From Vandiemenella viatica (lineage: Eukaryota; Arthropoda; Insecta; Orthoptera; Morabidae): 64,000 nucleotides of DNA. Shown here piece by piece: positions 27,806-64,000 of the stretch. Within the stretch, counting starts at the first letter, position 1. Each line of letters begins with the position of its first letter. Under the pieces are notes generated by a model. It searched no databases, was not told the origin of the DNA, and saw only the letters and a program-made list of their open reading frames with translations. A program made the position numbers and the translations under genes. Location of the stretch: NCBI GenBank assembly GCA_031002005.1, contig CM061920.1, forward strand, positions 115,248,095 to 115,312,094, read 5' to 3'.

Positions 27806-27807
<2 letters not shown>

Positions 27808-27856: not shown

Positions 27857-27858
<2 letters not shown>

Positions 27859-27860
<2 letters not shown>

Positions 27861-29870: not shown

Positions 29871-29871
29871 C

Positions 29872-29881: not shown

Positions 29882-29882
29882 T

Positions 29883-32370: not shown

Positions 32371-32411
<41 letters not shown>

Positions 32412-32413
<2 letters not shown>

Positions 32414-34398: not shown

Positions 34399-34967
34399 TG
34401 TCACATTACAGTAGGCTTGCCTCCTTCAGTAATTAACTTATTTTTAATTACTATATTTATTCTATGCCAAGTACCGAATGTTATGAGAATCGGTGACTTG
34501 GGAGACTGACAGTTGATGGTGAGATCAGAGAGTGTGGTCGTGAAGAGAACGTCGTGTGTATCGTTCCTCTGGTTTTGTGAAAGTGATGGAAAGAATTTTT
34601 TTTTTTTTTTACACTCTGAAGAACCTGCATCTTAGGATTATATAGTCACTACAAGTAACTTTAATTGTATGTGCTTTAATTACTTTTTGCATTGGTGGCC
34701 GGGTACATTTGTGCAGTTCAAAACGGTGAATAAATCTTTGGTTTGTGTTCTGCATACAAGTGGAGTTATTTGAAGAAACTTTTCATTATATAAGTATTGA
34801 TTTGTACCCTAGCCAGCTAATGGTGGCGGCCGAGATTAATTTAATATACGAAGTCTGATCGTCCTTACATTAGGTGGTAAAAACTAATTATAAAGGGGAA
34901 TAATTAGCAAGTCAGAAGGAACTGCTGTGATCATCCCGATACACTATTTCAAGCTTGTTCTCCGACA
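34399..34967 (+). repeat. LTR C
   Basis: 569 bp. It ends ...TCTCCGACA and is followed by AACT and then LINE B sequence. It carries small deletions relative to LTRs A and B near 34530. Confidence 0.93.
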
Positions 34968-39438: not shown

Positions 39439-40743
39439 CCAGGGTGAGTCAAATGAAAACCTTAAATTTGTAATAGAAAATCTAAATTTCGCGCCGTTAT
39501 CCTGTAAGTTGGTAAGTGTGATAGAAGCAACGTGCAGAATGGCCTGTAGGTGGTAGCATAGTGCAGATGCACAAATACTATCGCAGTATCAGTATAAAGA
39601 TGGCTGCCTCACTTGAAACTTGCACCAGGGAAGAACAGGGTTCTGTTATTCGGTTTTTGAGTAGTGAAGGTGTGAAACCTATTGAAATTCATCGAAGAAT
39701 GAAGGTTCAGTACGGTGATGCATGTTTGTCACAGCAGCAAGTCTACGAATGGAGTAGGAAGTTCGCAAATGGTGTGACTTCAGTGGAAGATGCTCCTCGT
39801 CCAGGTCAGGCACAACGAGTTGTGACTCCACAGAACATTGCAGCAGTTGAAGCCATAGTGATGGAAAACTGCCAAGTGACACTGATTGACATTGCAGCAT
39901 GTTTAAAGATTAGTCATGGTTCAGCACACCACATTGTGCATGATGTGCTCCAGTTTCACAAAGTGTCTGCAAGATGGGTGCCATGGCAGCTGATTCCTGA
40001 AATGAGAGACCGACGTGTTGATGCTTGTGAAGAACTTCTTCGGCGCTTTGAACGAGAAGGTGATGGCTTGCTTGCAAGAATTGTTACTGGGGACGAAACC
40101 TGGGTTCACTTCCACCAACCGGAAATGAAGAGAGCGAGCGAGGAATGGCGCCATTCCTCATCACCAAAACCAAAGAAGTTTCGAACAGAACCATCAGCAA
40201 GGAAGGTTATGCTGACTCTCTTTTGGGATGAAAAAGGCGTCATTATGGAGCATTACAAGCCTAGAGAGACCACTGTCACCAGTGCTTCATACACAGATCT
40301 CCTAAAAAATAATCTTCGGCCTGCAATCAAATCAAAGCGACGTGGATTGCTGTCATCAGGTGTCCTTTTGAAACATGACAATGCAAGGCCCCACACTGCC
40401 CGTACAACAGTTGCAACAATCACAGACCTGCATTTTGAATGTCTTCCTCATCCACCATACTCTCCAGACCTTGCCCCAACTGATTTCCATATGTTTGGAC
40501 CACTCAAAGAGGGAGGAAAGAAGTTCCGTTCTGATGAAGAGGTACGCCACGCAGTGCATGAGTGGTTGAGCGGACTACCAAAAGAATTTTTTTTCTAAAG
40601 GAATTTATGCACTTTGTAAGCGCTGGAGGACTTGCATTGAGCGTGGGGGAGATTATGTTGAAAACTGATACAGCTCTGTACCACTTCTGCACAGTAAATA
40701 ATATTTAATAAAATATTTAAGGTTTTCATTTGACTCACCCCCG
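39439..40743 (+). mobile_element. mariner element 2 (1305 bp), nearly intact
   Basis: Terminal inverted repeats: left CCAGGGTGAGTCAAATGAAA and, from the right end, CGGGGGTGAGTCAAATGAAA, each continuing with ACCTTAAAT. TA flanks both sides (39437-39438, 40744-40745) in the TATATA segment of an array unit. It encloses a long transposase frame with all three catalytic Asp residues. It differs in end sequence from mariner 1, so it is a different subfamily. Confidence 0.96.
39600..40598 (+). CDS. mariner transposase, C-terminally frameshifted
   Basis: An upstream ATG exists at 39561, but MAASLETCTREEQ at 39600 fits mariner N-termini better. An N-terminal helix-turn-helix (SVIRFLSSEGVKPIEIHRRM, QQQVYEWSRKF) precedes the catalytic domain: GDETWVHF (Asp near residue 165), KHDNARPHTA (near 260) and YSPDLAPTDF (near 294). 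I count 34 residues between the last two Asp, giving DD34D. ARWVPWQL replaces the usual WVPHEL. Translation ends at FFF-stop in a run of eight T; the frame one base over continues with SKGIYALCKRW to a natural stop near 40669, so a 1-base slip removes about 24 residues. Confidence 0.93.
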   Translation: MAASLETCTREEQGSVIRFLSSEGVKPIEIHRRMKVQYGDACLSQQQVYEWSRKFANGVTSVEDAPRPGQAQRVVTPQNIAAVEAIVMENCQVTLIDIAACLKISHGSAHHIVHDVLQFHKVSARWVPWQLIPEMRDRRVDACEELLRRFEREGDGLLARIVTGDETWVHFHQPEMKRASEEWRHSSSPKPKKFRTEPSARKVMLTLFWDEKGVIMEHYKPRETTVTSASYTDLLKNNLRPAIKSKRRGLLSSGVLLKHDNARPHTARTTVATITDLHFECLPHPPYSPDLAPTDFHMFGPLKEGGKKFRSDEEVRHAVHEWLSGLPKEFFF

Positions 40744-41098: not shown

Positions 41099-42894
41099 AA
41101 CTATCTGTATTAATAATACATGCTGTCTTATAATTTCGAAAAACTACTGACCGGCGATAGACAGACGATTGGATGTGGAGGTACCTGTACTGTTTTTCCA
41201 TGTAGCGTTCAGGTAGCACAGTGGTTAATGCGCTTGCTTACTAATGACTGGGTCGTGGTCTCCGGTTTTAATCTTCGTGAAGGCTAAGATTTAAAAAATT
41301 GTTTTTGATCGTAAGAGTAACGCCTGTGCAGTCGGTTATTCGGATTGAATGTTAATCTCTAGATTTCACAAAGTTAGGGGTGAAATGCGAAGGAAATTGT
41401 AGGTAGTCTTGCAATGCTGTAGGTGTCTACTTTTTTACGTTATATTGATCCCTCAGGGGTGATTCGCAGTCGGTGTGTGTATGATCTGTAGTAATCTTTA
41501 TACATAAAGATTAATGTATGTATGTTTGTTCTTCATACAAATCCACAGTTTTCATACATGTCGAAGAAACTTTGGACACTTATCCTTTGAAACAAGGAGA
41601 AAAATACTGTCTACATTTGGTTGAAAAATTATCTGTATAAATGACACATGTTCTTATTATTTCAAAAATTACTGAAAGGCGATAGACAGACGCGTTGGAT
41701 GTGGAGGTCTCTGTATTTTCCATGTAGCGATCAGGTATCTCAGTGGTTAAAGCGATTGTTTACTGATGTTTTGGTCGCGGTCTCCGTTTCAAATCTCTGT
41801 GGAGGCGAAGAATTTAAAAAATTGTTTTTAATCGTAAGAGTCACACTTGGGACGTCGGTTATTCGGATTTAATGTTAAATTATAGATATCACAAATTTAG
41901 GGGTGCAATGCCAGGCAAATCGTAGGTAGGTATTCTTGCAATGCTGTAAATTGTATTGATACCTCAGGGATTGTTCGCAGTCAGTGTGTCTGTGATATAC
42001 AGTAATCTATATATCTACGAGTTGTTATTGATCGGAAGAGTCACGCTTGGGCGGTCAGTTATTCGGATTGAATATTAAACTGTAGATTTCACAAAGTTAG
42101 GGGTTCAATGCCAAGCAAATCGTAGGTAGTCTCGCAATGCTGTAGGTGTTCACTTTTTTACGATATATTGATCCCTCAGGGGTGATTCGCAGTCAGTGTG
42201 TGGGTGATCTGCAGTAATCTATATACATAAAGATGAATGTTCGTATGTTTGTTTTTCATACAAATCCATAGTTTTCATATGATCTCGATGAAACTTTGCA
42301 CACTTATCCTTTGAGACACGGAGAAAAATACTGTCTATATTTGGTTGAAAAATTATCTGCATAAATAATACATGTTGTCTTGAAATATCGGAAAATTACT
42401 GAACGGCGATAGACAGACGCGTTGGATGTGGAGGTCTCTGTACTATTTCTCCATGTGGCGGTCAGGTAACTCAGTGGTTAAAGCGCTTGCTTACTGATGT
42501 TTTGGTCGTAGTTCTCAGTTGAAATCTCAATGAAGGCTCAGATTTTAAAAATTGTTTTTGATCGTCACGCCTGGGCCATCGGTTACTTGGATTGAATTGT
42601 AAACCATAAATATTACATAGTTAGGGGTGAAATGCGAGGCAAATCGTAGGTAGTCTAGCAATGCTGTATGTGGATCCTTTCTCACGTCACATTGATCCCT
42701 CAGGGGTGATTCACAGTTTGTGTGTGTGTCATCTGCAATAATTTTCAAATATAAAGATGAATGTAAGTGTGACTGTTTGTTGGTTTATACGTTCTTCATA
42801 CAAATCCATATTTCTCATCCGATCTCGATTCAACTTTTCACTTATCCTCTGAAACAAAGAGAAAAATACTGCCTGAATTTGGTTAAAAAATTAC

Positions 42895-43278
42895 ACTGTT
42901 GTAAACATAAAAAAATATTTGTTTTTTCTTAAAAAAATACCTTGTTCCTAGTTGTACTTAGAGCACTGAATTAAAACTTGCTTTTAGTTTCTTTGTGTCA
43001 GGGATAGATTGCGAGTAATCGCGAGTTTATTTATTTTTTTCTGCTATAGTGCAGAACTCATTATCTGAAATTCAAGAAACAAATAACATGTTTATGATAT
43101 TAAGGACATTGAGGAAGGTGGGGATCTAACATATAACAAAGTATACGTACTTAGTGTATTCGCTTTGTAGCATTTATTTTGCATTTCACAGAAAATTGAC
43201 AAAAAATGAGTCACCATATAGTAGTTCCGTCTCTTTTTTTCTCTTGTATTGACAATCTCCTTTCTCTCGAATGATATT
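42895..43278. other. Left terminal region of the CACT-ended element
   Basis: Noncoding, AT-rich, with the subterminal TGTCAGGGATA at 42996-43006. Confidence 0.5.
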
Positions 43279-43453
43279 TCAACAATAATCTGCTAAAATT
43301 GATTGTACCCATTTCCCTTCATAACGCCTTTCTATTGTAGATAAGTCTATGGAATCTTTCACCATGTTTATCCGATACATCACTACAACTCTCTGTGAAG
43401 TAGTACAGGTGAGAGTCCATCGTATATACCTTCAGAGACATATTGCACCCAAG
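43279..43453 (-). pseudogene. Orphan transposon protein, C-terminal piece
   Basis: Minus strand from 43453: LGCNMSLKVYTMDSHLYYF, then SDKHGERFH, a frame change, and ERRYEGKW with ILADYC, ending at a TGA where Trp is usual. These are the closing blocks of the family whose N-terminal and middle pieces lie at 53084-52884 and 50590-49420. An AG just before the ATCTTGGG at about 43458 could be an intron acceptor. Confidence 0.7.
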
Positions 43454-43672
43454 ATCTTAATATACTCTGATTACTGTTGCAAATTAAATTTTTTTTTCTT
43501 CAGATTTGTGAAAAAAAGCATGAAAAAAACCTAGCACCCTTGTTTTTTTTCTAAATTTGTTGTTTTTTCTTTCAGAAAACAATATATTTGATAAATTATA
43601 GTTTTATTTATGAACTTAAAGTTTACATGTGTGTTTTAAAACTTACTAATTCATATAATGTCTTACATAATG

Positions 43673-45611
43673 ATTTAATTAATTTAATTTAATTTAACTG
43701 CAATGGAGCACAGGCTCCGGTGGCAATTTCCCTACCCACCCATCTTCCCCCCATTCCTGCACCTACCTACATTAGCCCTCTACAAATTTTATCTTTAAAT
43801 TCTTTCAAAGTTTTCGGTAAATTATTCATCATTTCTTTTGGTAACTCATTCCAATCCCTGACACCCTTACCTAAAAAAGGGAATCTTCCTACACCCTTGT
43901 GCCTGAAATCGAGTGCCAGCTTGTTGTCATGGTCATCTTTTCCCTTCCATGCACTGCTTTTCATACCTATTGCAATATCTTTCCATGCCTCATCGCCAGT
44001 ATATGCCCTGTACACTCCCATGACCCTCATTCTCCTCCTGTCTTGCAATGAATCCCATTCCAGCTCCTTTATCATATCCGTCACTGATTGCATTCAGCGA
44101 TAATTTCCAGAAACAAATTTCGCAGCCCTTTTTTGCACCCTCTCCAACTCCTGTATTTGATACGTAAAATGAGGGTCCCATACTACACTACCATATTCGA
44201 GCAATGGTCTGATCAAAGTTTTGTAACCCAATTCCTTGACTTCTCTCGTACATCCCCTCATCACTCTCTCCAACAAGTGCAGAACTATGAAACCTTTTCC
44301 TACCACCTGTCCTATGTGTCCTGCCCAGTTAAGCTTGTTATCAAAAGTAATGCCAAGATATTTAAATTTCAAGTCTTCAGCAAGCAATTCTTTCCCCACC
44401 TTATATTCATAATTAACATTTTGTTTTTTATTTGTGTATCTAATAAGCTGACTCTTCTTTGCAATTATATTCATTCCATGTTTACCAACCCAATTAGATA
44501 TCCTGTCCAGATCACCCTGCAACTGTTTACAATCCTCTATCGTTTTGATTCTTTTATACAGCATTATGTCATCTGCAAACAATCTAATTTCAGATAGTAA
44601 ACAATCAACACAATTATTCATTAGAATAACGAATAGCAATGGTTCCAATACGCTACCCTGTGGCACACCCATTTTTACTTCCACTTCTTTTGATACTACA
44701 TTTCCTACCCTAACTTTCTGTTTTCTACCTTTTAAAAATTCTTCTACCCAGCAAATCACTTTCTCATCCACTCCAATGGTTTTTACCTTATTTACTACCA
44801 TTTTAAGGCTTACTCTGTCAAAGGCCTTTGACAGATCTAGTGCTACACTATCAATTTGGCCTCCCTTGTTCATTTCATCTGAAATATCTTGCATATATCC
44901 CACCAACTGAGATTCGCATGAATATCCCTGCCTGGACCCCTTGTTGCCTGCTTGAAAACCACTTACGTTCCTCACATATATTTCTGATGTGGTTGCATAT
45001 CAATCTTTCCATTAATTTACCTACCACTGATGTCAAACTGATTGGCCTGTAATTCTCAACTCTATTTCTCACCCCTCCCTTATGTACCGGTACTACTATT
45101 GCACTTTTCCAGTCCTGTGGTAAGCAGCAAGTGTCTAGACTCAATTTAAATAATATTTCAAGATATGGTACGATGTCACATCCGGCTATCTTTAAGATAT
45201 CTGTAGTAATATTATCTTCACCAGCCCCTTTATTTTTTTTTTTTCAGCTTTCTTATTTCCTTCATGATTTCCTCAGGATGGATATCAAATTTTTTACTAT
45301 CGTCATTTCTAATTGTGTTGTTAAGCTCATTCTCCGAATTAGACCCTCCTGTTTCTGATTCATTGTCCCTACTGAACCAGTTACTTAAAATCTCTGCCTT
45401 TTTCAAATCGTCAGTAACTTCTTCTCCATCCATATCTATAAGTGTCTGTACACCCTCCCTTCCCCTCAGTTTCCTGATATAGCCATAGAAATTTCTAGAA
45501 GCATCAGTCAATGGTCCTCCTGCACTGACAATACTCTTCATAAACCCATCTTTAGCCACTTTCTTTGCTGTTATTAGGTCCTTGTTTAGTTGTTTTAAAT
45601 ATTCCCTACTA
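43673..45611 (-). mobile_element. LINE family A, copy 1, 3' part
   Basis: Minus strand; an AATTA-repeat tail lies at 43673-43700. It continues upstream of Penelope 1 at 48357-48632, giving a copy of about 2.2 kb without the endonuclease. The 13-bp ATATTCCCTACTA is duplicated around Penelope 1, and LINE A copy 2 shows the intact site. Confidence 0.93.
44094..45559 (-). pseudogene. LINE A reverse transcriptase, copy 1
   Basis: Blocks in order: KDGFMKSIVSAGGPLTDA, GGVRNRVENYRPISLTSVVG, LDLSKAFDRVS (catalytic Asp), KMGVPQGSVLEPLLF, RLFADDIML (catalytic F-A-D-D), KFKYLGITFDNKLNW and LLEYGSVVWDPHFT. The 293-codon frame 44975-44094 is the longest; earlier blocks are in other frames, and GPLLF is changed to EPLLF. 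It ends at a TGA where copy 2 has Arg. CR1-type non-LTR RT, which reverse-transcribes its own RNA at the target site. Confidence 0.93.
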
Positions 45612-45866
45612 TATAAATTCTTCTCGGGTTTGCCGCCGAATTACATTTTCTACTGTCAAGCTTTCGGCGACTTTCACTGCCGCCATCATCAGGTCTGTTG
45701 TATCTGAAGGAACAACAAAAACTGGACTGAATAACGGAACTGAACGAGCCAGGAACGTTGTCGACTTCCGATTGGCTGACTCCAATGACGTAACCATTCC
45801 GTGACTGCGATTGGTCGGTTGCGGAACCAGGCGTAGATATACACCAGCGTTGTACTGATAGTTGGC
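45612..45866 (+). repeat. Penelope 1 left pseudo-LTR, inverted relative to the right one
   Basis: 255 bp that reappear in reverse complement at 48071-48326. The segment 45662-45692 is the complement of a hammerhead-like core. Confidence 0.92.
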
Positions 45867-47677
45867 AATTGAAATAGTTGCTAGAAAGCTTCCTGGGGAT
45901 GCGGCTGAAGAAGTCCGAAGGGAAACGTGCAGAGTTCTGGAGAAAGCCAAACCACCTAGGCCCAACATCACAAAATCGGAACGCTTCTTTCTCCGTGCGT
46001 TGCGTCGGAACGAAGAAGTGGTTGTGTTACCTGCGGACAAAGGGAATGCCACAGTCTTGCTTACATCTGATATGTATGAATCCAAAATACAAAATATGCT
46101 TGATGACACCGCTTATAAGCCCCTTAATGGTGACCCTACTTCCAGAGTTGAGAGGAAAGTGTCAGCTCTTGTTAAGAAGGCCGGATTTACGCCTGATGTC
46201 GTCAAGTACCTTCGTCCTCGTGCAGCCAGACCACCTAGGCTTTACGGCCTGCCAAAGATACACAAGGAGGATGTGCCTTTACGACCGATTGTAAGTACTA
46301 TTGGTAGTCCCACATATAACTTGGCCAAGCATTTGTCTAAGATGCTTAGACCTTTCGTAGGTAATTGTCCGCACCATGTTAAAAACTCGACACAGTTTGT
46401 CGATACGCTCCGAAAGATGCGGTTGTCAGAGTCTGATATTATGGTCAGTTTTGATGTTGTCTCGCTCTTCACCAAGGTTCCTTTGAGAGACACACTGCAG
46501 CTGTTACAAGGTCTTTTTGAACCTACCTTGGTGGATCTGTTCGAACTAGTCCTAACTTCTACTTGTTTTACCTATGGTGGGAGTTTTTATGAACAGACTG
46601 ATGGTGTGGCAATGGGGTCTCCATTATCTCCTGTAGTAGCCGACCTGTGTATGGAACACTTTGAAGAGCAATTGAAACCTCCTTCCTCAAACCAACATAC
46701 TTCTATCGTTATGTGGACGATACATTTGTTGTTTGGCCCCATGCGATCCAGGGTCTTTATGAATTCATGGACCATCTCAATAGCATTCATGAAAACATCA
46801 GATTCACTATGGAGCTAGAGAAAGATGGTAGATTGCCCTTTCTAGATATTTTAATCCAGCGGAGACCTGATGGTACCCTATCACATAGTGTGTACAGGAA
46901 AATAACACACACGGACCGTTATTTACATGCCGATAGTTTCCACCATCTGGCGCAGAAGAACACGGTGTTATACACGCTTGTACACAGAGCAAAGGCAATT
47001 TCAGACGCTGACAATCTGCAAGACGAACTCGAACATCTCCGCCATACCTTCATGCAGAATGGATACCCGATCCCATTGATAGAAGGGGCATTTCGAAAGA
47101 AAAAGGCAGATATACGTAATATTGAGGAAGAAGAACAGCCTAAAGATCTTGCCTTCATCCCGTATGCAGGTAGCATCTCTGGGAAAATCGGCAGGATTTT
47201 AAAACGATATGGAATCAAGTGCATTTTCCTGCCAAAATACGGGATTTGCTGCGTCCTGTGAAGGATGATTTGGGTTTAAAAACACCGGGAGTGTACAGCA
47301 TACCGTGCCAATGTGGTAAGAGTTATATTGGTCAAACCATCCGCACTATCCAGGCCCGTGTGACTGAACACCAACGCAACATCCGGTTGTTCCAACTAGA
47401 AAAGTTGGCACAACACGTGATCGAAAATGGTCACAGTATGGATTTCGATAAGGTGAAAGTTTTAGCCAAGTGTTCCTTCTTCTGGGAATCTGTGATTAAA
47501 GAGGCGATTGAGATACGCCTGAATAATAATAATATGAACAGGGACTTGGGTGTATGGCTCAGTGACGCATGGAAGCCAGTTTTTGCCATTCTTAAACAAC
47601 CAAGTGTCTCGCTGACGGACGATAGGAGAGTGGAGCACGGCGTATCGGTCCGACTACATCTACAGCTGAATCTTTAG
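45862..47677 (+). pseudogene. Penelope 1 RT and GIY-YIG endonuclease
   Basis: First frame (45862-46690): RRNEEVVVLPADKGN, RLYGLPKIHK, PLRPIVSTIGSP, VSFDVVSLFTKVP (first catalytic Asp) and TDGVAMGSPLSPVVAD. A frameshift near 46680 leads to YVDDTFVVWP (46710-46721 encode Y-V-D-D) and GRLPFLDILI, YRKITHTDRYLH. A second shift near 47230 leads to the endonuclease: GVYSIPCQCGKSYIGQT, ARVTEHQRN, with GVY and YIG as the GIY-YIG pair. Penelope RTs are related to telomerase; the endonuclease nicks the target. The two frameshifts make this copy inactive. Confidence 0.95.
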
Positions 47678-47699
47678 CCGACCAATCACAGACAAGTAT

Positions 47700-47960
47700 T
47701 ACAGAACCGGGGTTATAGTCAGCCAATCGGAAGACCGCATGGCTCCCTATGCATTTCTCGAGTTAAACATCATAATCAATGATAGTAAATGTTTTTTAAG
47801 AATATATAATGTGGGGTCTTTCATTAAAGAAGTCTTGGATTTTTCTGTGTGAGAATAATGTGAACGATGACGCTATGAGAACAGTTATTGTGTCAGCCAA
47901 TCAGAATACCGCTTGGCTCCCTAAGGATTATCGAGATTATACATCATGATTAATAGTGGT
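47700..47960 (+). repeat. Direct repeat in the Penelope 1 3' region
   Basis: GTCAGCCAATCGGAAGACCG...GGCTCCCTA at about 47703 recurs diverged at about 47884 (GTCAGCCAATCAGAATACCG...GGCTCCCTA), a spacing of about 181 bp. Confidence 0.8.
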
Positions 47961-48070
47961 GAATAATGTAATTAATGATTCAATATGAACAGTGACGTTA
48001 TGCGAACATTGACGTAGGTAATCCATCGTCTTTCTATTTTTAACAACCTCGGCTTTGGTTTCGCTGTGGA

Positions 48071-48326
48071 GCCAACTATCAGTACAACGCTGGTGTATAT
48101 CTACGCCTGGTTCCGCAACCGACCAATCGCAGTCACGGAATGGTTACGTCATTGGAGTCAGCCAATCGGAAGTCGACAACGTTCCTGGCCCGTTCAGTTC
48201 CGCTATTCAGTCCAGTTTTTGTTGTTCCTTCAGATACAACAGACCTGATGATGGCGGCAGTGAAAGTCGCCGAAAGCTTGACAGTAGAAAATGTAATTCG
48301 GCGGCAAACCCGAGAAGAATTTATAT
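48071..48326 (+). repeat. Penelope 1 right pseudo-LTR
   Basis: Inverted copy of the left pseudo-LTR. At 48245-48275 it reads CTGATGA-T-GGCGGC-N7-GTCGCC-GAAA, which fits the hammerhead ribozyme core with a 6-bp stem II containing one G-U pair. Hammerheads in Penelope pseudo-LTRs are established; stems I and III are not resolved here. Confidence 0.85.
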
Positions 48327-48356
48327 CGAAGATACGCCAAGAAAGACTTATATCTC

Positions 48357-48632
48357 ATATTCCCTACTACCCTGCTGTCTCTTAACTCTGTTATGTTCTT
48401 TTCTTACCAACCCCTTTAACCTCCTCACTTCCCTATTATAGTACATAGGTTCTCTACTTCTCTTTATTTTCTGTCTTGGAATAAATTTTTCTTCCCCCTT
48501 TCTTATTATCTCCTTGAACTCTTCCCACCTTGACTCTACTGTACTTGAGCCTTCCTTCCATTTGCTGAATTGTTCTCTGAAATATCTCTTCAAATTTGAA
48601 ACCTGTGCCTTTTTATAATTGTACCTATATTC
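48357..48632 (-). mobile_element. LINE family A, copy 1, upstream part
   Basis: Continuation of copy 1 beyond Penelope 1: minus-strand YNYKKAQVSNLKRYFREQF, FIPRQKIKRSREPMYY and NREVRRLKGLVRKEHNRV. It ends near 48632 at GTACAATTATAAAAAGGC, about where similarity with copy 2 fades. Confidence 0.92.
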
Positions 48633-49419
48633 ATAAATGTATCTATATAGGTAACATAATTTTTTATTCATCGTCTATGTCGGTACCACATTCACTAGTA
48701 GCAGTACTACCAACACTAGTTCGGTTGGAGTCGGAATTTTCTATTTCTTATTCTGTCTCCTCTAGATCCATAACTTCTGAAATAGTTATGTTTTTTTTAC
48801 TGGTTGTGACTGCGTCGATAGTTCTGTATTATGGTATTTTAAGTTTGAATTTACATCATACAAAATAGGAGCTTTATTTGTTTTCAATCGTTGGTTTGTG
48901 CCAACGGTTGCAAGGAAATGATTCATAATTACTGACAATGACTCAGTATCACTATACGATGCGAGTTTAACAAGTACACGAATATAAGGAAAAAACAATA
49001 AGTAATAAAAAGAGGCAAAAAACTGTAGTTAAATTTAATAATTTTTTTGAAAAGATTCGTAGGTCTATAGATAAATTTGTAGGGCCTGGCAACACTAGTT
49101 CAAATAGCGAGTATCAATCCAAACAATGGGGAATGGGGATTCCTTGTCACGCAACCTAGTCTTTTCGGGAAGTCCCCATTCATAAAAGAAAACTTCAGTC
49201 AATGTTGCCAATATTTTTGTAATTTTTTTTTGTACTGAACCATAATAAAATATAGTAGATTTAAAAGTAAGTTAAGTACTTAGTATAAACTCTAAAACAG
49301 TCATACTAAACGATAAATGCCTTAAAAATTTGAAATTTAGTAGTTATCAAAAAAACATGTCCCAGAAAAAAACATGTTTTTTTTTCACAGTTTTTTTTCA
49401 AGTCAGAAAAAATTTTTTT
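48633..49419 (-). other. Interior of the CACT-ended element, possible intron
   Basis: Lies between the middle and C-terminal pieces of the orphan gene. A 70-codon frame (48998-48786) and an acidic stretch with ISEVMDLEETE and DSNRTSVGST below it could be a second short protein; neither is recognised. Could be intron, or another inserted fragment. Confidence 0.4.
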
Positions 49420-50600
49420 TTTTACAACACTAGATCTGATCATGTCATTCACGATTTCTTTGTAGCTGGAAGCTCTTCTTCTGACACCTTCTTGAAACAT
49501 TCCCATGCTCTCTTTTCTTTGGCTGATAAGTGTGCTTCAAAAATTTTATCTTTCTGCAGCTGCTTGATTTGAGGTCCACAAATACACCTTCCTTTATTTT
49601 GGCAGCTGAAAGCCGGAGAAATCTGACGGCTAGATATGCAAATCTACTGCCTGCTGGATCCATGGCCTTTACAAACTGCTTGATTAGACCAAGTTTTATG
49701 TGAAGTGGTGGAAGTAGTATATCTTAGGAGCTACCAAACTTGCACGTTGCACATTTTTTTCACCCACTTTCCATTTCCGCTTAGGCCATTTCTTCTTCAC
49801 ATAGTGAGAATTTCTGTCACAACTATCCCACTCGCAAAGAAAACATGCATAATTTGTGTAGCCTTGTTGCATTCCCAATGTTATAGCAATTACTTTGAAA
49901 TCTCCACATATTTTCCATTTGTGTTCATTGTGTTGTAAAGAATTTATCATCCCCGTAAGATTTCGTAATTCTCTTTAGTTAAGCTGGCGTAAGCAACTGG
50001 AACAGCGGGCATTTTATTTCCATTGAGGAGCAAACCACCCTAGAGACTTGTTTTAGATGCATCTTTGAAAAGTCTCCATTCCTCTGAACAATAGCTGAAG
50101 TTCAGAACCTTGATTAGACCAGCAACGTCATTGCAAAATAAGGAATAAAGGCATGTTCTCGGTGCCTAAATACACTAATTTTAGTGCTTTGGTGGAGTAC
50201 ATTATTCTCTTGTAACCTCGAAACAAGTAGTTGCGCCTTTTGTTTACTTAGTCCTAGATCACGCACTAAACCATTTAAATCTGCTTGAGTTAGTAAATGT
50301 GGCAATGACTCACATGAACACTGATACAGAGAATCATCTGCTGCAGTACAAGTGATTTCTTCAACACAGTTAACGCCACTGTCACTCTGAATTTCATCTG
50401 TAGGTCTTGAAGGTACTGTAAGTCCGTCAGAATGCTTCACTGGCTTTCTCGCTGAAGGTAGATCGGGATAAACAATGTGTCTCTTAGATTTTTTGTTAGG
50501 AAAACTCTGAATTTTGGTTAGACAGAAATAACAATCAGTAACGTGGTCCTTTGGCTCTCTCCATACCATGGGCACAACGAACAGCACCACATTATCTTTA
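49420..50600 (-). pseudogene. Orphan transposon protein, middle piece
   Basis: Minus strand in order: VVPMVWREPKDHVTDCYFCL (C-x2-C pair), VYPDLPSARKPVKHSDGL, LNGLVRDLGLSKQKAQLL, VFRHREHAFIPYF, ND(V)AGLIKVL, WRLFKDASKTSL, LLLNGNKMPAVPVAYA, KWKICGDFKVIAITLGMQQ, GYTNYACFLCEWDS (C-x2-C), SRFAYLAVRFLRLSAAKIKE, GVFVD and SSYKEIVNDMI. I associate these blocks with a multicopy arthropod protein family of unknown function. Several stops and shifts are present (including TGA after NEW near 50610 and a stop after KTSL), so it is not translatable as it stands. The cysteine pairs suggest zinc binding. Confidence 0.75.
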
Positions 50601-50632
50601 CCTTTTCACCATTCAATTAGTTTACAGTAACA

Positions 50633-52887
50633 TAGTGATCATGAAGCAGTTCTGATGGATATTAGAGGATTCAGTAAACCAGCAGTCAAAATTGAAGGGG
50701 GAAATAGGTACAATTATAAAAAGGCCCGGATTTCAAATTTGAAGAGATATTTCAGACAACAATTCAGCAAATGGAAGGAAGGCTCAAGTACAGTAGAGTC
50801 AAGGTGGGAAGAGTTCAAGGAGATAGTAACAAAGGGGGAAGAAAAATTTATTCCAAGACAGAAAATAAAGAGAAGTAGAGAACCTATGTACTATAATAGG
50901 GAAGTGAGGAGGTTAAAGAGGTTGGTAAGAAAAGAACATAACCGAGTTAAGAGACAGCAGGGTAGTAAGGAATATTTAAAACAACTAAACAAGGACTTAA
51001 TAACAGCAAAGAAAATGGCTAAAGATGGGTTTATTAAGAGTATTGTCAGTACAGGAGGACCATTGACTGATGCATTTAGAAATTTCTATGGCTATATCAG
51101 GAAACTGAGGGGAAGGGAGAGTGTAGAGACACTTATAGATATGGATGGAGAAGAAGTTACTGACGATTTGAAAAAGGCAGAGATTTTAAGTAACTGTTTC
51201 AGTGAAAGCATTAGGGGCAATGAATCAGAAACAGGAGGGTCTAATTCGGAGAACGAGCTTAACAACACAATTAGAAATGACGATAGAAAAAATTTGATAT
51301 TCATCCTGAGGAAATCATGAAGGTAATAAGAAAGCTGAAAAAAAAAATAAAGGGGCTGGTGAAGATAATATTACTACAGATATCTTAAAGATAGCCGGAT
51401 GTGACATTGTACCTTATCTTGAAATATTATTTAAATTGAGTCTAGACACTTGCTGCTTACCACAGGACTGGAAAAGTGCAATAGTAGTACCGGTACATAA
51501 GGGAGGGGTGAGAAATAGAGTTGAGAATTACAGGCCAATCAGTTTGACATCAGTGGTAGGTAAATTAATGGAAAGATTGATATGCAACCACATCAGAAAT
51601 ATATGTGAGGAACGTAAGTGGTTTTCAAGCAGGCAACAAGGGGTCCAGGCAGGGATATTCATGCGAATCTCAGTTGGTGGGATATATGCAAGATATTTCA
51701 GATGAAATGAACAAGGGAGGCCAAATTGATAGTGTAGCACTAGATCTGTCAAAGGCCTTTGACAGAGTAAGCCATAAAATGGTAGTAAATAAGGTAAAAA
51801 CCATTGGAGTGGATGAGAAAGTGATTTGCTGGGTAGAAGAATTTTTAAAAGGTAGAAAACAGAAAGTTAGGGGAGGAAACGTAGTATCAAAAGAAGTGGA
51901 AGTAAAAATGGGTGTGCCACAGGGTAGCGTATTGGGACCATTGCTATTCATTATTCTAATGAATAATTGTGTTGATTGTTTACTATCTGAAATTAGATTG
52001 TTTGCAGATGACATAATGCTGTATAAAAGAATCAAAACGATAGAGGATTGTAAACAGTTGCAGGGTGATCTGGACAGGATATCTAATTGGGTTGGTAAAC
52101 ATGGAATGAATATAAATGCAAAGAAGAGTCAGCTTATTAGATACACAAATTAAAAAGAAAAGGTTAATTATGAATATAAGTTGGGGAAAGAATTGCTTGC
52201 TGAAGACTTGAAATTTAAATATCTTGGCATTACTTTTGATAACAAGCTTAACTGGGCAGGACACATTGGACAGGTGGTAGGAAAAGGTTTCAAAGTTCTG
52301 CACTTGTTGGAGAGAGTGATGAGGGGATGTACGAGAGAAGTAAAGGAATTGGGTTACAAAACTTTGGTCAGACCATTGCTCGAATAAGGTAGTGTAGTAT
52401 GGAACCCTCATTTTACGTGTCAAATACAGGAGTTGGGGAGGGTGCAAAAAAGGGCTGCTAGATTTGTTTCTGGAAATTATCGCAGAATGCAATCAGTGAT
52501 GGATATGATAAAGGAGCTGGAATGGGATTTTTGCAAGACAGGAGGAGAATGAGGAGGGTCATGGGAGTGTACAGGGCATATACTGGTGATGAGGCAAGGA
52601 ATGATATTGCAATAGGTATGGAAAGTAGTGCGTGGAAGGGAAAAGATGACCATGACCACAAGCTGACACTCGATTTCAGGCACAAAGGTGTGAGAAGATT
52701 CTCTTTTTTAGGTAAGGGTGTCAGGGATTTTAATGAGTTACCAAGAGAAATGATGAATAATTTACCGAAAACTTTGAAAGAATTTATAGATAAAATTTGT
52801 AGAGGGCAAATGTACGTGGGTGCAGGATAGGGGGAAGATGGGTGTGTAGAGAAATTGCCACCGGAGCCTGTGCTCCATTGCAATTAA
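50633..52887 (+). mobile_element. LINE family A, copy 2
   Basis: Plus strand. Begins in the last endonuclease codons (SDHEAVLMDI at about 50637) and runs to the CCATTGCAATTAAATTGAATT tail near 52887. It is inserted into the orphan transposon gene between the codons for CATCF (about 52890) and NEW-x-KGKD (about 50615). It is inverted relative to copy 1, with about 2 kb of high similarity. Confidence 0.93.
50655..52830 (+). pseudogene. LINE A reverse transcriptase, copy 2
   Basis: Segments: linker 50655-51320 (ISNLKRYFRQQFSKWKEGSS to EEVTDDLKKAEIL), 51436-51600 (GGVRNRVENYRPISLTSVVG), 51605-52153 (LDLSKAFDRVSHKMVV, KMGVPQGSVLGPLLF, RLFADDIML), 52181-52387 (KFKYLGITFDNKLNW) and 52390-52830 (C-terminal WDPHF-like to RFSFLGKGVRDFN). 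Frame changes near 51290 and 51620, a TAA near 52152 and another at 52385 inactivate it. RT motifs are better preserved than in copy 1 (GPLLF intact). Confidence 0.92.
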
Positions 52888-53084
52888 ATTGAATTAAAAC
52901 ATGTGGCACAACAGAAATGTGGTGCCCATTCCTTATCATGGTCTGCTACCTTTACTCCGAAGTAATGTTTATATGCGTTCTTTATGATTGCAGAAATTTT
53001 CTTCCGATTTCTTGCAAGGGTGAACTTCCCACAAATGTAACAGAAGTTGTCTGGCTTATATTGACAAGTACAACGATGAGGCAT
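52884..53084 (-). pseudogene. Orphan transposon protein, N-terminal piece
   Basis: Starts with ATG at 53084: MPHRCTCQYKPDNFCYICGK, then AYKHYFGVKVADHDKEWAPH and FCCATCF. Four Cys in two C-x2-C-like pairs and the WAPH-x2-C-x2-C ending look like a zinc-binding N-terminal domain. The reading runs into LINE A copy 2; the following codons resume at about 50615 and the two flanks fit together with the expected spacing to the Trp-x2-Gly-Lys block. Confidence 0.75.
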
Positions 53085-53112
53085 TTTCTAAAAATTTAAA
53101 AATCATTGTTAT

Positions 53113-53114
<2 letters not shown>

Positions 53115-53138
<24 letters not shown>
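53115..53138. repeat. (TA)n microsatellite, left of Penelope 2
   Basis: Pure TA repeat abutting the left end of Penelope 2; a matching tract lies at 54990-55022 on the right, so the element probably inserted into a TA tract. Confidence 0.95.
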
Positions 53139-53139
<1 letters not shown>

Positions 53140-53143
<4 letters not shown>

Positions 53144-54985
53144 CGCTAAGTAGCGGAAAGGAATCAAATTAGGATAGGAAAATGAGCCACCACTTACCTT
53201 TAGATGATGGATGTGGGGCGCGAACACACATAAAAGACACAAACACAAACAATAAAGAAATTTCTGGGAAAAAACCCCTTCGTCAACAAGAGAACATTAT
53301 GAGAGGTGGGTGTAGCCGGAGATTGCCTCACAGTAAGACCGCCGGTCGAGAAAATGGTGGGGGTAAATTCAAACATCGGAAAAGTAGAGGGGCTGTGAAT
53401 CAGAGCTAATACCCGAGCAAAAATAAATATCCAAACTAATTTCTGGTTGGTGGGAAGATCAAAATATAATTAGAACTAAATATATATTGTAAAAAAAGTT
53501 ATTATAAAAAATATTATACAAAAAAATAATATTTATAAATTAAACATCACCTCAGATTAGTGGTGGTTCAGTATAGTTAACGGAAAGGAGAGGAATAAAA
53601 AATAGGTTAAACATATGTACTACTAATAATAATGACAGGGTATTATCTTAAGTTGAGACCAGGTGGTTGCCTTGTGCCAAGTTTGTACTGGAAGGCAAGT
53701 TCCCACCTTTTGAGTTCAGAGAAACTGCTGCTATTGGGGAGAACTCTGATAGCACGGACTGTGTAGCAAGAGTTGAAATTATTCAAGTCGTGGGTTATGG
53801 CATGGGCAGCAACTGGGTGCTTTGGGTTCTGTGTGAACACCGTCTGACGGTGGCCATTCATTCTAATGGAAAGTGCATTAGTGGTCACACCTATATATGA
53901 AGCCAGGCAGTGGTTGCATGTTAACTGGTATATTACATGCGTGGTTTCACAGGTGGCGTGTCCTATGATAGGGAAGCTTTCCCCTGTGACCGGGTTGATG
54001 AAAGTGGTGGAAGCATGGTGTATGTCACACATCTTGCAGCGTGGTCTGTTACATGGGAAAGAGCCTTGGGGTTGACTGTTAGGAAGAGGAAGATTGTATT
54101 TGTGGACTAGAAGTTCGCTGAGGTTAGGAGGTCTGCTGAAACAAGTTCTAGGAGGGGCAAGGAGGATTTTTAGGAAGAATGGATCTCATTTCAGGGCATG
54201 TTTGTAAGAAATCATAGCCCTGCCGGAGGATTCTGTTGATGGATTTGAGGCCTCGGTAGTACTGTGTGACCAAGACTGGATTGTGGTTGGTTTTTGCGGG
54301 TCTGGGATGATTGATTGGCTGATTCAGTTGTGACGTAGCATGTGAAAGCTGTTTGTTAACCAAAGCTGGAGGGTAGTTGCGAGATATTAATGCTTCTGAA
54401 ATACTGTTTGAATAATCAATGAGAGACTGTGGGTTAGAGCATATGCGACTACCTCGAATGCCAAGACTGTAGGGGAGTGAACGTTTGGTATGGTATGGGT
54501 GGCAACTGTCGAAATGGAGATACTGTTGAAGATTGGTTGGTTTGATGTGAACTGAAGAGTTGAGATAGCCATTGGATAGGGACAAATCAACATCCAAGAA
54601 TGTGGCCTGGGTGTGGGAGTAGGACCAAGTGAATTTCAGCATGCTAAAGTTATTGAGATGGTTCAGGAAATTTAGCAGTTCATTTTCTCCATGCGTCCAA
54701 ATCATAAATATGTCATTAATGAAACGAAGCCAAAGGGGTATTAGCTCTGATTCACTGCCCCTCTACTTTTCCGATGTTTGAATTTACCCGCACCATTTTC
54801 TCGACCGGCGGTCTTTCTGTGAGGCAATCTCCGGCTGCACCCACCTCTCATAATGTTCTCTTCTTGACGAAGGGTTTTTTTCCCGAAAATTTCTTTATTG
54901 TTTGTGTTTGTGTCTTTTATGTGTGATCGCGCCCCACATCCATCATCTAAAGGTAAGTGGTGGCTCATTTCCCTATCCTGATTTG
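53140..54985 (-). mobile_element. Penelope-like element 2, 5'-truncated
   Basis: Inverted pseudo-LTRs at about 53163-53410 and 54737-54985 (for example GTAGAGGGGCTGTGAATCAG against CTGATTCACTGCCCCTCTAC) enclose minus-strand Penelope coding sequence. The RT begins in mid-domain directly at the pseudo-LTR border, so it is truncated. CTTGACGA-AGGG-T7-CCC-GAAA at 54863-54888 and TTGACGA-AGGGG-T6-CCC-AGAAA inverted at 53261-53286 resemble a hammerhead core with changes. Confidence 0.9.
53643..54705 (-). pseudogene. Penelope 2 RT C-terminus and GIY-YIG endonuclease
   Basis: Upstream of the 185-codon frame (54705-54148) the reading is WLRFINDIFMIWTHG, where the RT box normally reads Y-V-D-D, so F-I-N-D replaces it. 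FTWSYSHTQATFLDVDLSL and YLHFDSCHPYHTKRSLPYS follow. A shift near 54100 leads to the endonuclease frame (54032-53643): HVIYQLTCNHCLASYIGVT with the GIY-YIG-like Y...YIG pair and RMNGHRQ. Missing N-terminal RT and a broken active site make it inactive. Confidence 0.92.
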
Positions 54986-54986
54986 A

Positions 54987-54989
<3 letters not shown>

Positions 54990-55022
<33 letters not shown>
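54990..55022. repeat. (TA)n microsatellite, right of Penelope 2
   Basis: Pure AT repeat adjoining the right pseudo-LTR. Confidence 0.95.
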
Positions 55023-55026
<4 letters not shown>

Positions 55027-55140
55027 GAAATTACGCAAAAAGTATCCCTGACAACGAAATTCAGATTAGAATTTCTCTTCATAAATTGGTTTAGAATCTC
55101 ACATTTTAATATCAGTAAGAGAACCCTCATCATAGTGTTA

Positions 55141-58100
55141 TCTGTATAAATACTACATATTGTCTTATAATTTCAAAAAATTACTGAACGGCGTAGACGC
55201 TTTTGATGAGGAGATTGTCATACTGTTTTTCCATATAGCGGTAAGGTAGCTCAGTTATTAAAGTGCTTGCTTACTGATGTTTGGATCGTGTTCTTCGAAT
55301 CAAATCACCGTGGAGGTGAAGATTTTAAAAAAAAACGTTTTTGATCATAAGAGTCACGCCTGGACTGTTGGTTATTTGGAATGAATGTTAAACTGTAGAT
55401 ATCACAAAGTTAGGAGAGCAATAGGAGGCAAATCGTAGATAGTCTTGCAATGCTGTAGTTGTACACTTTTTTACGTTATAATGATCCCTAAGGGATAAGT
55501 TCGCAGTCAGTGTGTGTGTGACCCGCAGTAATCTATATATACATAAAGATGAACATACGTATGTTTGTTTGTTGGTTGGTATGTTCTTCATAAAAATCTA
55601 CAGTTTTCATACGATCTCGATGAAACATTGCACACTTATCCTCAGAAGCGAGGAGAAAAATACTGTCTACATTTGGTAGACAAATTGTCTGTATAAATAA
55701 TACATGTTGTCTTACAATTTCGAAAACTTACTGAATGGCAATAGACAGGGGTGTTAGATGTGGAGGTCTCTGCACTGTTTTTCCACGTTGCGGTCAAGTA
55801 GCTCAGTGGTTAATGCGCTTTCTTACTAATGTTTGGTTCGTGGTCTCTGGTTTTAATCTCCGTGGAGGTAAGATTTTTAAAAATTGTTTTTGATCGTAAG
55901 AGTCATGGCTGGCCCGTGGGTTATTACTATTGAATGTTAAACAGTAGATATCACAATGTTAGTGGTGCAGTGCGAAGCAAATCGTAGGTAATCTTTCAAT
56001 GCTGTACACTATTTTACGCTATATTGTTCCCTCAGGGGTGATGCGCTGTCAGTGTGTGTGATCTGCAGTAATCTATATTTATATAAAGATGAATTTATGT
56101 ATGTTTGTTTCTTCTTCATACAAATCCACAGTTTTCAAATGATCTCGATGAAACTTTGCACAATTAACCTCTGAACAAGGAGAAAAATACTGTCTACATT
56201 TGGTTGAAATATTATCAGCGTAATAATACATGTTACCTTATAATTTCGAAAAATTACTGAACGGTGATAGATATACGCGTTGGATGTGCAGGCCTCTGTA
56301 CACTTTTTCCATGTAGTAGTCAGGTATCTCAGTGCTTAAAGCACTTGCTTACTGATGTTTGATTTGTAGTATCTGGTTCATATCACCGTGCAGGCTAAGA
56401 TTTTCAAAAATTGTTTTTGACTGTAAGATTCACGCCTGGGGCGTTGGTTATTCAGATTGTTTGCTAAACTGTAGATATCAAGTTAGGGGCGCAATCCGAG
56501 TTAAATCGTAGGTAGTCTTGCAATGCAGTAGCTGTACACTTTTTTACATTATATTGATCCCTAAGGGGTGATTCACAGTCAGTGCGTGTGTGATACTGTC
56601 TACATTTGGTTGAAAAGGTATCTTCATAAATAATACATGTTATCTTATAATTTAAAAAAATTACTGAACGGCAATAGACAGACGCGTTGTATGTGGAGCT
56701 CTCTGTACAGTTTTTCCATGTAGCGGTCAGGTAGCTCAGTGGATAAAGTGCTTACTTACTGAAGGTTTGGTCGTTGTCTGCGGTTCAAATCTCTGTGGAG
56801 ACAAAGATTTTTAAATAATTTTTTTGATCGTAGGAGTCATGCCTGGGCCATCGATTATTCGGATTGAATGTTAAACTGTAGTTATAAAAAATTGAGGGGT
56901 GCATAGCGAGGCAAATCATAGGTAGGTAGTCTTGCAATGCTGTAAATTGTATCGATTTTTTTTTTAACTGCTTTACGTCTCTTTTTAACATCGAGGTCTT
57001 TGGAGACGGGAAAGGATGGGGGGCAAGGAATGGGAAGGAATTCGGCCATGGCCTTTTTGAAGGAAGCATCCCGGCATTTGCCTGGAGTGATTTGGGGAAA
57101 CCATGGAAATTCCAAATCTGGATGCCCGGACGGGGATTCGAACCGCCGTCCTCCCGAATGCGAGGCGAGAACGCTAACCGTTACACCGCCCCGCTCGGTA
57201 ATTGTATTGATACCTCAGGGATTGTTCGCTGTCAGTGTGTGTGTGATATGCAGTAATCTATATATCTGTTATATATAAAGAAGAATGTATATGTGTTTGT
57301 TTGTTTGCTGTTTTGTTTGTTCTTCATAGAAATACGCAGTTTACAAAACTATCTTGATGAAATCTTGCACCCCTTTCCTCTGAAACAAGGAGAAAAATAC
57401 TGTTTACATTTGGTTGAAAAATTATGTGTATAAATAATACGTGTAGTAATACAATTTCGAATAGTTACTGAACGGCGATAGACAGGAACGTTGGATGTGG
57501 AGGGCTCTGTACTTTTTCTCCATGTAGCGGTCAGGTACGTCAGTGGTTAAAGCGCATGCTTACTGATGTTTTGGTCGTGGTTTTCGGTTCAAATCTCAGT
57601 GAATGCTCAGATTTTTAAGAATTGTTTTTGATCGTAAGAGTCACGCCTGGGCCGTCGGTTACTCGGACTGAATGGTAAACTATAGATATCACAAAGTTAG
57701 GGGTGAATTGTGAGGCAAATCGTAGGTAGTCTTGCAGTGCTGTAGGTGTATACTTTCTCACGTCATATTAATCCCTCAAGGATGATTCGCAGTTTGTGTG
57801 TGCGTCAACTGCAGTAATCAATATATATAAAGATGAATGTATGTGTGTTTGTTTGTTCTTCATACAAATCCACAGTTTTCATCCGATCTCAATGTAATTT
57901 TGCACACTTATCCTTTGAAACAAGGAGAAAAATACTGCCAGCATTTGGTTAAAAAAATTGTCTGTATAAATAATACATGTTGTCTTAAAATTTCGAAAAA
58001 TTACTGAACAGCGATAGACAGTTACGTTGGATGTGGAGATCTCTGTACTGTTTTTCCATATAGCGGTCGGGTAGCTCAGTGGTTTAAGCGCTTGCTTACT

Positions 58101-59062
58101 GATGTTTGGATCGTGTTCGCTGGTTCAAATCACCGTGGAGGCGAAGATTTAAAAAGAAATTTTTTGATCGTAAGAGTCACGCCTAGGCAGTCGGTTATTC
58201 GGATTGAGTGTTAAACTGTAGATATCACAAAGTTAGGGGAGAAATGGGAGGCATATCGTAGCTAGTCTTGCAATGCTGTAGGTGTACACTATTTTATGTT
58301 ATATTGATCCATCAGGGATGATTCTCAGCCAGTGTGTGTGTGTGTGTGTGTGATATACATAAAGATGACCGTATGTTTGTTTGATGGTTGGTATGTTCTT
58401 CATTTAAATGCACAGTTTTCATACGATCTCAATGAAACGTTGCACACTTATCCTATGAACTGAAGAAAAAAATACTGTCTACATTTGTTGGAAAAATTAT
58501 CTGTATATGTAATACATGTTGTTTTACAATTTCAAAAACTTACTGAATGGAGATAGACAGAGGTGTTGGATGTGGAGTTCTCTGTGCTGCTTTTCCGCCT
58601 TGTGTTCAGGTAGCCCAGTGGGTAATGCGCTTTTTTACTTTTGTTTGGTTCGTGGTCTCTTGTTTTAATCTCCGTGGAGCTTAAGAATTTTAAAAATTGT
58701 TTTTGATCGTAAGAGTCATGCCTGCGCCGTAGGTTATTCCTATAGATTGTTAAACTTTAGATATCGCAATGTTAGTGGTGCAGTGCGAAGCAAATCGTAG
58801 GTCGTCTTGCAATGCTGTTGGTGTACACTAATTTATGTTATTATGTTCCTTCAGGTGTAATTCACTGTCAGTGTGTGTGGTGTACAGTAATCTATATATA
58901 TAAAGATGAAGGTATGTGGGTTTGTTGTTTTGTTTCTTCATAAAAATCCACAGTTTTCATACAATCTCGATGAAACTTTGCGCACTTATCCATTGAAATA
59001 AGGAGAAATACTGTCTAAATTTTGTTGAAAAATTATCTCTATAAATGATATATGTTTTGTAA
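55141..59062 (+). repeat. ~535-bp tandem array with tRNA-like heads, block 2
   Basis: Continues in phase from block 1 (the unit cut at 42893 resumes at TCTGTATAAATA). ATATAAAGATGAA-type unit starts lie near 55545, 56083, 57268, 57822, 58353 and 58895, spaced 531-554 bp except where a SINE and a fused unit lengthen one interval. tRNA-like heads (GGTAGCTCAGTGGTTAA...GGTTCAAATC) occur near 55237, 55790, 56320, 56720, 57525, 58060 and 58600. Units differ by roughly 10-20% by eye. Confidence 0.9.
56957..57199 (-). mobile_element. tRNA-derived SINE, copy 2
   Basis: Minus-strand copy of the SINE at 9809-10052: CGAGCGGGGCGGTGTAACGG start, GGTTCGAATCC B box, GGCAAATGCCGGGATGCTTC core and an A-rich tail at 56957. 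AATTGTATYGAT lies on both sides (56945-56956, 57200-57211), a 12-bp duplication with one mismatch, inside an array unit. Confidence 0.92.
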
Positions 59063-59537: not shown

Positions 59538-60480
59538 CTAGATGATTCTATTTGTTTTCCTGGTTTGTTTTGATGCCTCTGCGCCTGTTTGGAGTCGTGC
59601 AGGCGCGTTGTGTGTGAGGTCTGCCTGGCAGGGGCCTTTACTGGCAGACTGAACATACCTCCCTCCCTGGGGGGGGGGGGGGGGAGCGATGTCTGCGACG
59701 TCTGCGAGGTCGTCTGCCGCGGCGCCCTGGAGCAGACTATGAAGGCTACCTCCAGGGGAGTACGGAGCTGTTCCCCTGGCGATGCGTGCCGACCTGCGTC
59801 GTGGTGCAGGTTGTGGTGGAGGTACTTGTGGAGCTAACGGCATCGGTTCGTCGGCGTCGATGGCCGGGGGCTGTACGGGGGGCGCTGAAGATGGTCCCCG
59901 CAGGTGGTCGAGAGGCTGCGGCTGAAGGGTGTCGGAGCGACCGACAGGTTGTGGCGTCGTTGGTGGCGCTGTAACTGTCCCTGAGCAACGGTTAGACGGC
60001 AGGAGTGGTGGAGGTGGCAGGGAAGGAGAGGAAGAAGTGGATGGCCGTGCCGTGGTGGAAGAGGACGGTGCCGTGGGGTAGCGGGGACGTAGTTGGTTTC
60101 GATGGTGTCGCACTATCCGGCCATCCAGGCTGACGTCGAACAGTTGGCGGCCCCGGGGCCGCTGGATGACCCCCGGAAGCCAACCGGCCCGGGAGCCAAA
60201 CCCGCGGGCCCAGACTAGGGAGCCCGGGGTGAAACGGAATGGGCCCGAAGGTACCTGTACTTTGGGCGGGGGTAAGAGGAGATGGAGGAGAGTGCGAGGT
60301 TGGCGGCCATGCAGCAATTCCGCCGGGCTTTTGGCCCCCACTGGAGTGGTTCGATAGGAACTGAGGAAGAGTGTCAATGCCTCTTCGAGTTTGTGACTTG
60401 TTGTGTATTTGGTCATTTGGGTTTTGAATGTTCTGACTAGCCGTTCCGCCTCCCCGTTAGATTGGGGGGTGGAAGGGCGG
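59538..60480 (-). pseudogene. Gypsy integrase C-terminus and Pro-rich tail
   Basis: Continues the integrase in another frame: QSNGEAERLVRTFKTQM carries the catalytic Glu, and FLSSYRTTPVGAKSPAELL follows. A GPF/Y-type module (GPFRFTPGSLVWARGFG, HHRNQLRPRY) comes next, then about 150 residues rich in Pro, Ser and Ala. No chromodomain is visible. The break from the upstream frame lies in a run of seven C residues (seven G on the plus strand near 60466). Confidence 0.9.
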
Positions 60481-63759: not shown

Positions 63760-64000
63760 CTTCGATTGGTTCCAGGAAAGGAAATATGCACGCTGGTCTT
63801 CTTCTTTGGTTATGTGGTGAATTGCGAAGTGGTCTTATGCGCTTCTCGTAGGTCTCCCATTCCTCGACGTCGTTGTTGAATGCTGGGAACGGAGGCGGGG
63901 CCGTGGGTTGGCGGAGATTCCTGACTTCCGCAATCAGTTGTCTCTGAGATTCGAAGAACTGATGTAGAAGTCCTTGGAGGAACTGTTGCCATTCCGTAGG
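63760..64000 (-). pseudogene. Gypsy gag N-terminal part, continuing off the window
   Basis: Minus strand from the window edge: LLHQFFESQRQLIAEVRNLR and FPAFNNDVEEWETYEKR fit a Gypsy Gag. After a frame change near 63838, HFAIHHITKEEDQRAYFL leads in frame into the 1100-codon segment. The start codon is beyond the window. Confidence 0.85.

Follow-up and report, generated by a model that had tools for sequence, protein, structure and literature searches.

The locus examined here raises two questions: what kind of transposon the CACT-ended sequence at 42894-55137 is, and whether the broken gene that it carries is its transposase or an unrelated passenger. It lies in a stretch of 64,000 nt from Vandiemenella viatica (GCA_031002005.1, CM061920.1:115,248,095-115,312,094; the window, to which all positions refer). 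The original prediction, made from the letters of the window, described a multicopy arthropod protein as the product, perhaps the transposase, of a CACT-ended DNA transposon of the CACTA/Mirage/Chapaev group. Evidence from the insertion site, from copies elsewhere in the genome (3.72 Gb searched) and from related proteins indicates that the element very probably belongs to Chapaev3, an assignment made by the published description of ends, target duplication, size and motifs.

Ends, insertion site and genomic copies

CACT at 42894 and AGTG at 55137 are the termini of the element, and TTA stands on each side; the left junction reads A-TTA-CACTGTTG and the right CATAGTG-TTA-T. An empty site reconstructed by fusing the flanks and keeping one TTA aligned at 83.7% over 1,212 columns with the uninterrupted array at 57365-58550. 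A 120-bp join of the flanks aligned across the site at 10 places in the array, several of them with AAAAATTATCTG, and the insertion point reads A-TTA-T both in the window flanks and in several units of the array. The insertion hit a single unit of this satellite-like array, and the junctions and the alignment of the join confirm the predicted ends, the TTA on both sides and the array unit that reads across the empty site. The array (38903-59056) is built of ~0.54-kb repeats and is broken by a mariner-type copy (open frame 39525-40598) as well as by the Chapaev3 element. The parts of the element are listed here, F1 being the family to which the window copy was assigned.

42891-42893: left copy of the target duplication, TTA after A; array units read across the site
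42894-43233, minus strand: left end, CACTGTTG..., and the non-coding stretch downstream of the gene; 150-bp matches in the genome
42996-43006, plus strand: left subterminal block TGTCAGGGATA, also in 20/20 other copies
43234-43474, minus strand: C-terminal gene piece, F1 residues ~473-551, with H(4)H, the catalytic E region and the protein end (78-87% by tblastn)
49433-50638, minus strand: central gene piece, residues ~60-458, with the end of the zinc domain, both catalytic D residues, C(2)C and LH
52899-53084, minus strand: N-terminal gene piece, with the start codon and the first two CxxC pairs (76% to F1 residues 1-69, in an alignment that runs slightly into the tail of a long interspersed nuclear element, LINE)
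55024-55137, minus strand: right end, upstream of the gene; 103/114 bases match fetched copies at 79-86%
55043-55053, minus strand: right subterminal block TGTCAGGGATA, also in 13/13 copies with a found right end
55138-55140: right copy of the target duplication, TTA before T

The three minus-strand gene pieces are as predicted, with boundaries redrawn to 53084-52899, 50638-49433 (containing frame changes) and 43474-43234. Against the F1 protein, the central piece matched at 81-84% by tblastn in four pieces with internal frame changes, and a 205-residue stretch running through these changes matched at 45%. Assignment of the window copy to F1 follows from 76-87% amino acid identity in 7/8 matched pieces. 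The right end in the window has decayed to ...CATAGTG, where most copies with a recognised right end read ...CAAACAGTG. The window copy is in all likelihood an old, dead Chapaev3 copy, whose live version coded one protein of ~550 aa.

A search with the left-end 150 bp gave 40 scored matches among 72 candidates in the genome, the window counted. Of the 21 other copies matching from base 1, 20 were sampled, so that the left end is present by selection, and the right end was assessed only inside the fetched copies. These copies start with CACTGTT (18/20) or CACAGTT (2/20), and 19/20 hold at least part of the gene, as the original prediction had anticipated for such a search (one, L026, has a short piece only). 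The right end was recognised in 13/20. The 3-bp flanks were identical in 10 of these 13 and differed in three; the identical pairs were six TAA and four TTA, preceded by A in nine and followed by T in all 10. Nine of these 10 copies are 2.1-2.7 kb long. The other, L016, is a 520-bp non-autonomous copy resembling a miniature inverted-repeat transposable element, with a TAA duplication, both ends and both TGTCAGGGATA blocks and without a match to the gene.

A second sample started from the gene. Scoring of 79 out of 7,341 first-look candidates yielded 83 matches, of which the best 30 were cut out; five copies are shared with the left-end sample. Both ends of one family motif (at most 2 mismatches) were found in 19/30 and one or more in 27/30, so homologues found by the gene alone commonly have CACTG...CAGTG-type ends. 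Flanks were identical in 15/19 two-ended copies (14 TWA, one ATA, W being A or T), and where both flanks were TWA, 14 pairs agreed and 0 disagreed. The family end motifs were taken from the same gene-based loci, and a count with bare CACTG/CAGTG is the freer test: such ends together with matched TWA flanks occurred in 13/30 copies vs 1/600 with shuffled flanks.

Two results qualify the evidence from flanks and ends. In a control of mispaired loci, TWA flanks matched in 219/870: with TWA as the target, such matches are frequent in themselves, and target preference explains part of the matching. The case for duplication rests instead on the 14 agreeing and 0 disagreeing TWA pairs and on the empty site. 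Secondly, the two ends of the window copy, aligned directly, scored 35, not above chance (mean 31.8 and maximum 54 in 200 shuffles). Despite this, the TGTCAGGGATA pair is regarded as a family feature because it recurs near the ends of other copies. In the window the 11-mer is exact and inverted, 102 bp from the left and 84 bp from the right end; in other copies, allowing at most 1 mismatch, the corresponding distances are 96-111 bp (20/20) and 93 bp (13/13 with a recognised right end). The subterminal inverted blocks of the original prediction thus hold. Ends and gene travel together as a multicopy family of ~2.3 kb, shorter than the ~3.2 kb first proposed.

Three families were distinguished by their ends: F1, that of the window (CACTGTTTGACAAG / TTTGTAGAACAGTG), F2 (CACTGTTCAACAAT / TTTGTTGTTCAGTG) and F3 (CACTGGTCTACAGG / TTTGTAGGCCAGTG). 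Their proteins, compared by one representative each, share 50-55% amino acid identity, and the gene is a single open frame in several copies. Copies of F2 were 98.0-99.5% identical (eight compared, out of 10 cut out with an F2 end: L055, L057-L060, L062, L064 and L067) and those of F3 98.1-99.2% (n=5: L056, L063, L066, L070 and L071; L076, matching by its right end only, was excluded). F1 copies were 87-98% identical (n=7, with L050, L052, L054 and L072 excluded). The frame lacked a stop in 9/13 compared F2 and F3 copies, a sample drawn from the 30 best matches in which intact copies are favoured. Given 98-99.5% identity and these stop-free frames, the simplest reading of the sequences is that F2 and F3 probably moved recently.

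Conserved residues and predicted fold of the protein

One search with the protein returned 1,067 matches; named relatives include those of insects, a mantis shrimp and a frog, and the nearest named ones are from Schistocerca. Among 120 listed relatives, the alignment columns of D260, D314, C333, C336, L380 and H381 (P0001 numbering) were kept in 120/120, H489, H494 and E511 in 119/120 and E508 in 118/120, while the three CxxC pairs of the N-terminal domain were kept in 116-118. Strict text patterns matched fewer of these proteins than the alignment columns (C2C 103, LH 118, H4H 101) because they also fix neighbouring residues. The predicted model of a 552-aa relative was nearest to the Transib and RAG1 catalytic fold. 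The expected RNase H-like fold with conserved acidic residues is accordingly what the model predicts, with D, D and E kept in at least 118/120, and the protein is predicted to be a DDE transposase of RAG1/Transib type, RAG1 being the enzyme that rearranges human antibody genes.

Searches by sequence were less informative. No Pfam match over the cut-off was obtained, and RAG1_imp_bd gave a sub-threshold match to P0008 residues 40-114 (E 0.54). The protein query (A1) found no relatives among viral contigs or genome contigs, and the six rows that it gave against PDB sequences (E 0.38-2.1) included no transposase. Nothing was found in a viral structure library at E < 0.001.

A host gene or captured passenger, with the transposase encoded elsewhere, would fit the deposition of the named relatives as 'uncharacterized protein' or 'hypothetical protein'. 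This was rejected and is extremely improbable: in each of three families at 50-55% amino acid identity the gene lies between that family's own CACTG ends, the protein has the predicted fold and the conserved residues of a transposase, and the gene fills most of the element. The earlier view of the protein as the product and transposase of the transposon is supported by the same co-occurrence, fold and residues.

Passages of PMC4079192 describe Chapaev3 as having CAC/GTG ends, a TWA triplet duplicated on insertion between A and T, and the motifs C(2)C, LH and H(4)H, and give for silkworm Garfield_BM a length of 2,289 bp and a 556-aa transposase. The V. viatica element shows the same kind of ends, target duplication and motifs alongside the DDE residues. 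The predicted group was right in kind, and the gene is no orphan, its features matching Chapaev3 as described in parts of PMC4079192 and PMC4411706.

Membership of CACTA/EnSpm (or Mirage) would be compatible with the CAC...GTG ends and 3-bp duplications, which also occur in EnSpm/CACTA, and with C(2)C and H(3-4)H, which a passage of PMC12730594 gives as shared by the CMCT lineages. It is nevertheless improbable. The TWA between A and T, the protein size, LH and the length of 2.3-2.6 kb fit the Chapaev3 description, and the predicted fold is nearest Transib/RAG1, though no CACTA structure was listed to compete. Transposase_21 and DUF1280 are not among the 25 families listed of the 30 that 56 proteins matched in Pfam up to E 10, which does not settle the matter either way. 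A separate superfamily between Transib and CMC might be proposed from the lack of a Pfam match over the cut-off and from the structural proximity to Transib/RAG1. This is very unlikely, since the published ends, duplication, size and motifs of Chapaev3 are all present.

The N-terminal domain offers a further lead. As described in part of PMC4411706, the Chapa zinc domain is N-terminal in Chapaev3 and common to the N-terminal part of RAG1. The AlphaFold model of the domain (P0001 residues 1-146; window 52899-53084) had a pLDDT of 91, and the six best of 9 Foldseek rows against PDB were ZAD chains of three proteins, with a weak best E of 0.25. A tentative likeness to the ZAD (zf-AD) of M1BP (7po9) and Grauzone (1pzw) would lie in the predicted fold and in the CxxC...CxxC pattern. 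Among sub-threshold Pfam matches of the domain zf-AD was the most frequent: it was listed for 6 of 32 slices, with E 0.017 at best, and slice 1 scored 12.5 bits vs a cut-off of 28. Profile-profile comparison with ZAD scored 22.0, above all 60 column shuffles (highest 16.5), and placed the second Cys pair in register, but its probability was only 22.7%. Searching PDB sequences with the N-terminal profile (A3) gave nothing up to E 10, which says little because a true ZAD query itself finds PDB ZADs only at E 0.023-1.1. The models suggest, tentatively and with the balance somewhat against it, that the Chapa domain is a ZAD, in which case the dimerisation domain of one of the biggest insect transcription-factor families would have a common origin with a RAG/Transib-group transposase and might derive from it. 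A major insect regulator domain would then be tied to the transposon group that gave vertebrates RAG1.

Among the genomic loci, L029 contains a frame (1426-2295, minus strand) with a full ZAD domain; a protein search with this ZAD gave no match. Each of the genome's remaining 17 zf-AD matches picks up the profile no earlier than position 24, a pattern expected if the domain is split by an intron.

Later insertions and neighbouring features

Five insertions interrupt the element: one terminal inverted repeat (TIR) element, two LINEs and two Penelope-like elements. The original prediction of four nested retroelements was right about the LINEs and the Penelope-like elements and missed the fifth insertion, at 43472-49432.

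43472-49432: insertion 1, TIR element of unsettled class with ends TAGTGTTGTAAA / TACTGTTGCAAA, holding LINE A1 and Penelope 1
43683-48628, minus strand: insertion 2, LINE A1, split by Penelope 1; 95.9-96.7% identity to LINE A2
45611-48326, plus strand: insertion 3, Penelope-like element 1 (RVT_1, E 3.6e-8)
50638-52902, plus strand: insertion 4, LINE A2 (RVT_1, E 9.7e-24), boundaries from sequence to within a few bases
53113-55023, minus strand: insertion 5, Penelope-like element 2 in a TA-repeat, with inverted flanking repeats

Without these insertions, and using the chosen insertion boundaries, the window element measures ~2.1 kb. The imperfect inverted ends of 43472-49432 scored 105 vs a best of 87 in 300 shuffles, and its flanks share ATCAGA. 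Its first 193 bp gave 40 scored matches among 192 candidates in the genome, the window counted; 35/40 reach the terminal base, but the query started there, so that they establish a dispersed repeat and do not prove the boundary. The element is perhaps hAT-like. An intron at 43472-49432 was ruled out by the shared hexamer, the inverted ends, the 40 genome matches and the unbroken frame of L048 at this point. LINE or Penelope sequence was likewise rejected as the origin of the Chapaev3 element's ends.

The elements at 45611-48326 and 53113-55023 are those we take to be Penelope-like. Inverted repeats flank the first (45611-45866 and 48071-48326, 99.2%) and the second (53114-53414 and 54736-55023, 90.7%), for which no Pfam match was obtained at E <= 0.001.

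Elsewhere in the window, 25311-34967 comprises two tandem units of ~4.6 kb, 98% identical and sharing terminal repeats of ~0.58 kb, as might arise if a long terminal repeat (LTR) element had been duplicated through its LTR. At 313-4300 lies a decayed copia-type element whose 244-bp direct terminal repeats are 98% identical. A 1,125-aa open frame at 60457-63834 (minus strand), with protease, reverse transcriptase, RNase H and integrase domains, is assumed to be gypsy-like. In the assembly, contigs C7, C8, C4537 and C7729 have 388,957,591-388,957,675 bases each, as if chromosomes were cut into equal pieces.

Proposed transposition and comparison with known systems

The TGTCAGGGATA block is a likely transposase-binding site. 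The transposase would bind these blocks ~95-105 bp inside each end and pair the two ends, and might then make its cuts beside CACTG/CAGTG, using two metal ions coordinated by D, D and E. RAG and Transib cleave through a hairpin on the flank; by analogy, cutting here would probably pass through a hairpin on the flanking DNA. The freed element would be joined into an A-TWA-T target with a 3-bp stagger. The window copy would have entered an array unit in this way, and the TIR element, LINEs and Penelope-like elements would have interrupted it later.

The window copy itself is ordinary, Chapaev3 being a known kind of insect cut-and-paste transposon. Its analysis makes a widely deposited 'uncharacterized protein' readable as a transposase, which aids annotation of arthropod genomes, and adds an insect genome with two probably recently active Chapaev3 families.

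Transib duplicates 5 bp of its target, unlike the 3-bp TWA duplications seen here; the catalytic fold predicted here is of the Transib/RAG1 kind, and identity to HzTransib (6pqx) is 13%. The RAG1 core (6oeo, 6xnx) differs in that the V. viatica protein is encoded on a mobile element where no second gene was seen, and in the spacing of the first and second D, 54 here vs 108 in RAG1. Chapaev3 has been grouped with Transib, TransibSU, RAG1 and Chapaev (in part of PMC4411706), and RAG1 with DUF1280 (in part of PMC3985635). RAG-like kinship is already known for the Chapaev3 group, and only the predicted structural model of this family is added. The closest correspondence is with the Chapaev3 transposons Merrow, Garfield and Conan, in CAC...GTG ends, TWA between A and T, a length of ~2.3 kb, a ~550-aa transposase and the C(2)C/LH/H(4)H motifs; host and sequence are different, and the gene is in two exons in Garfield and Merrow but forms one open frame in several V. 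viatica copies.

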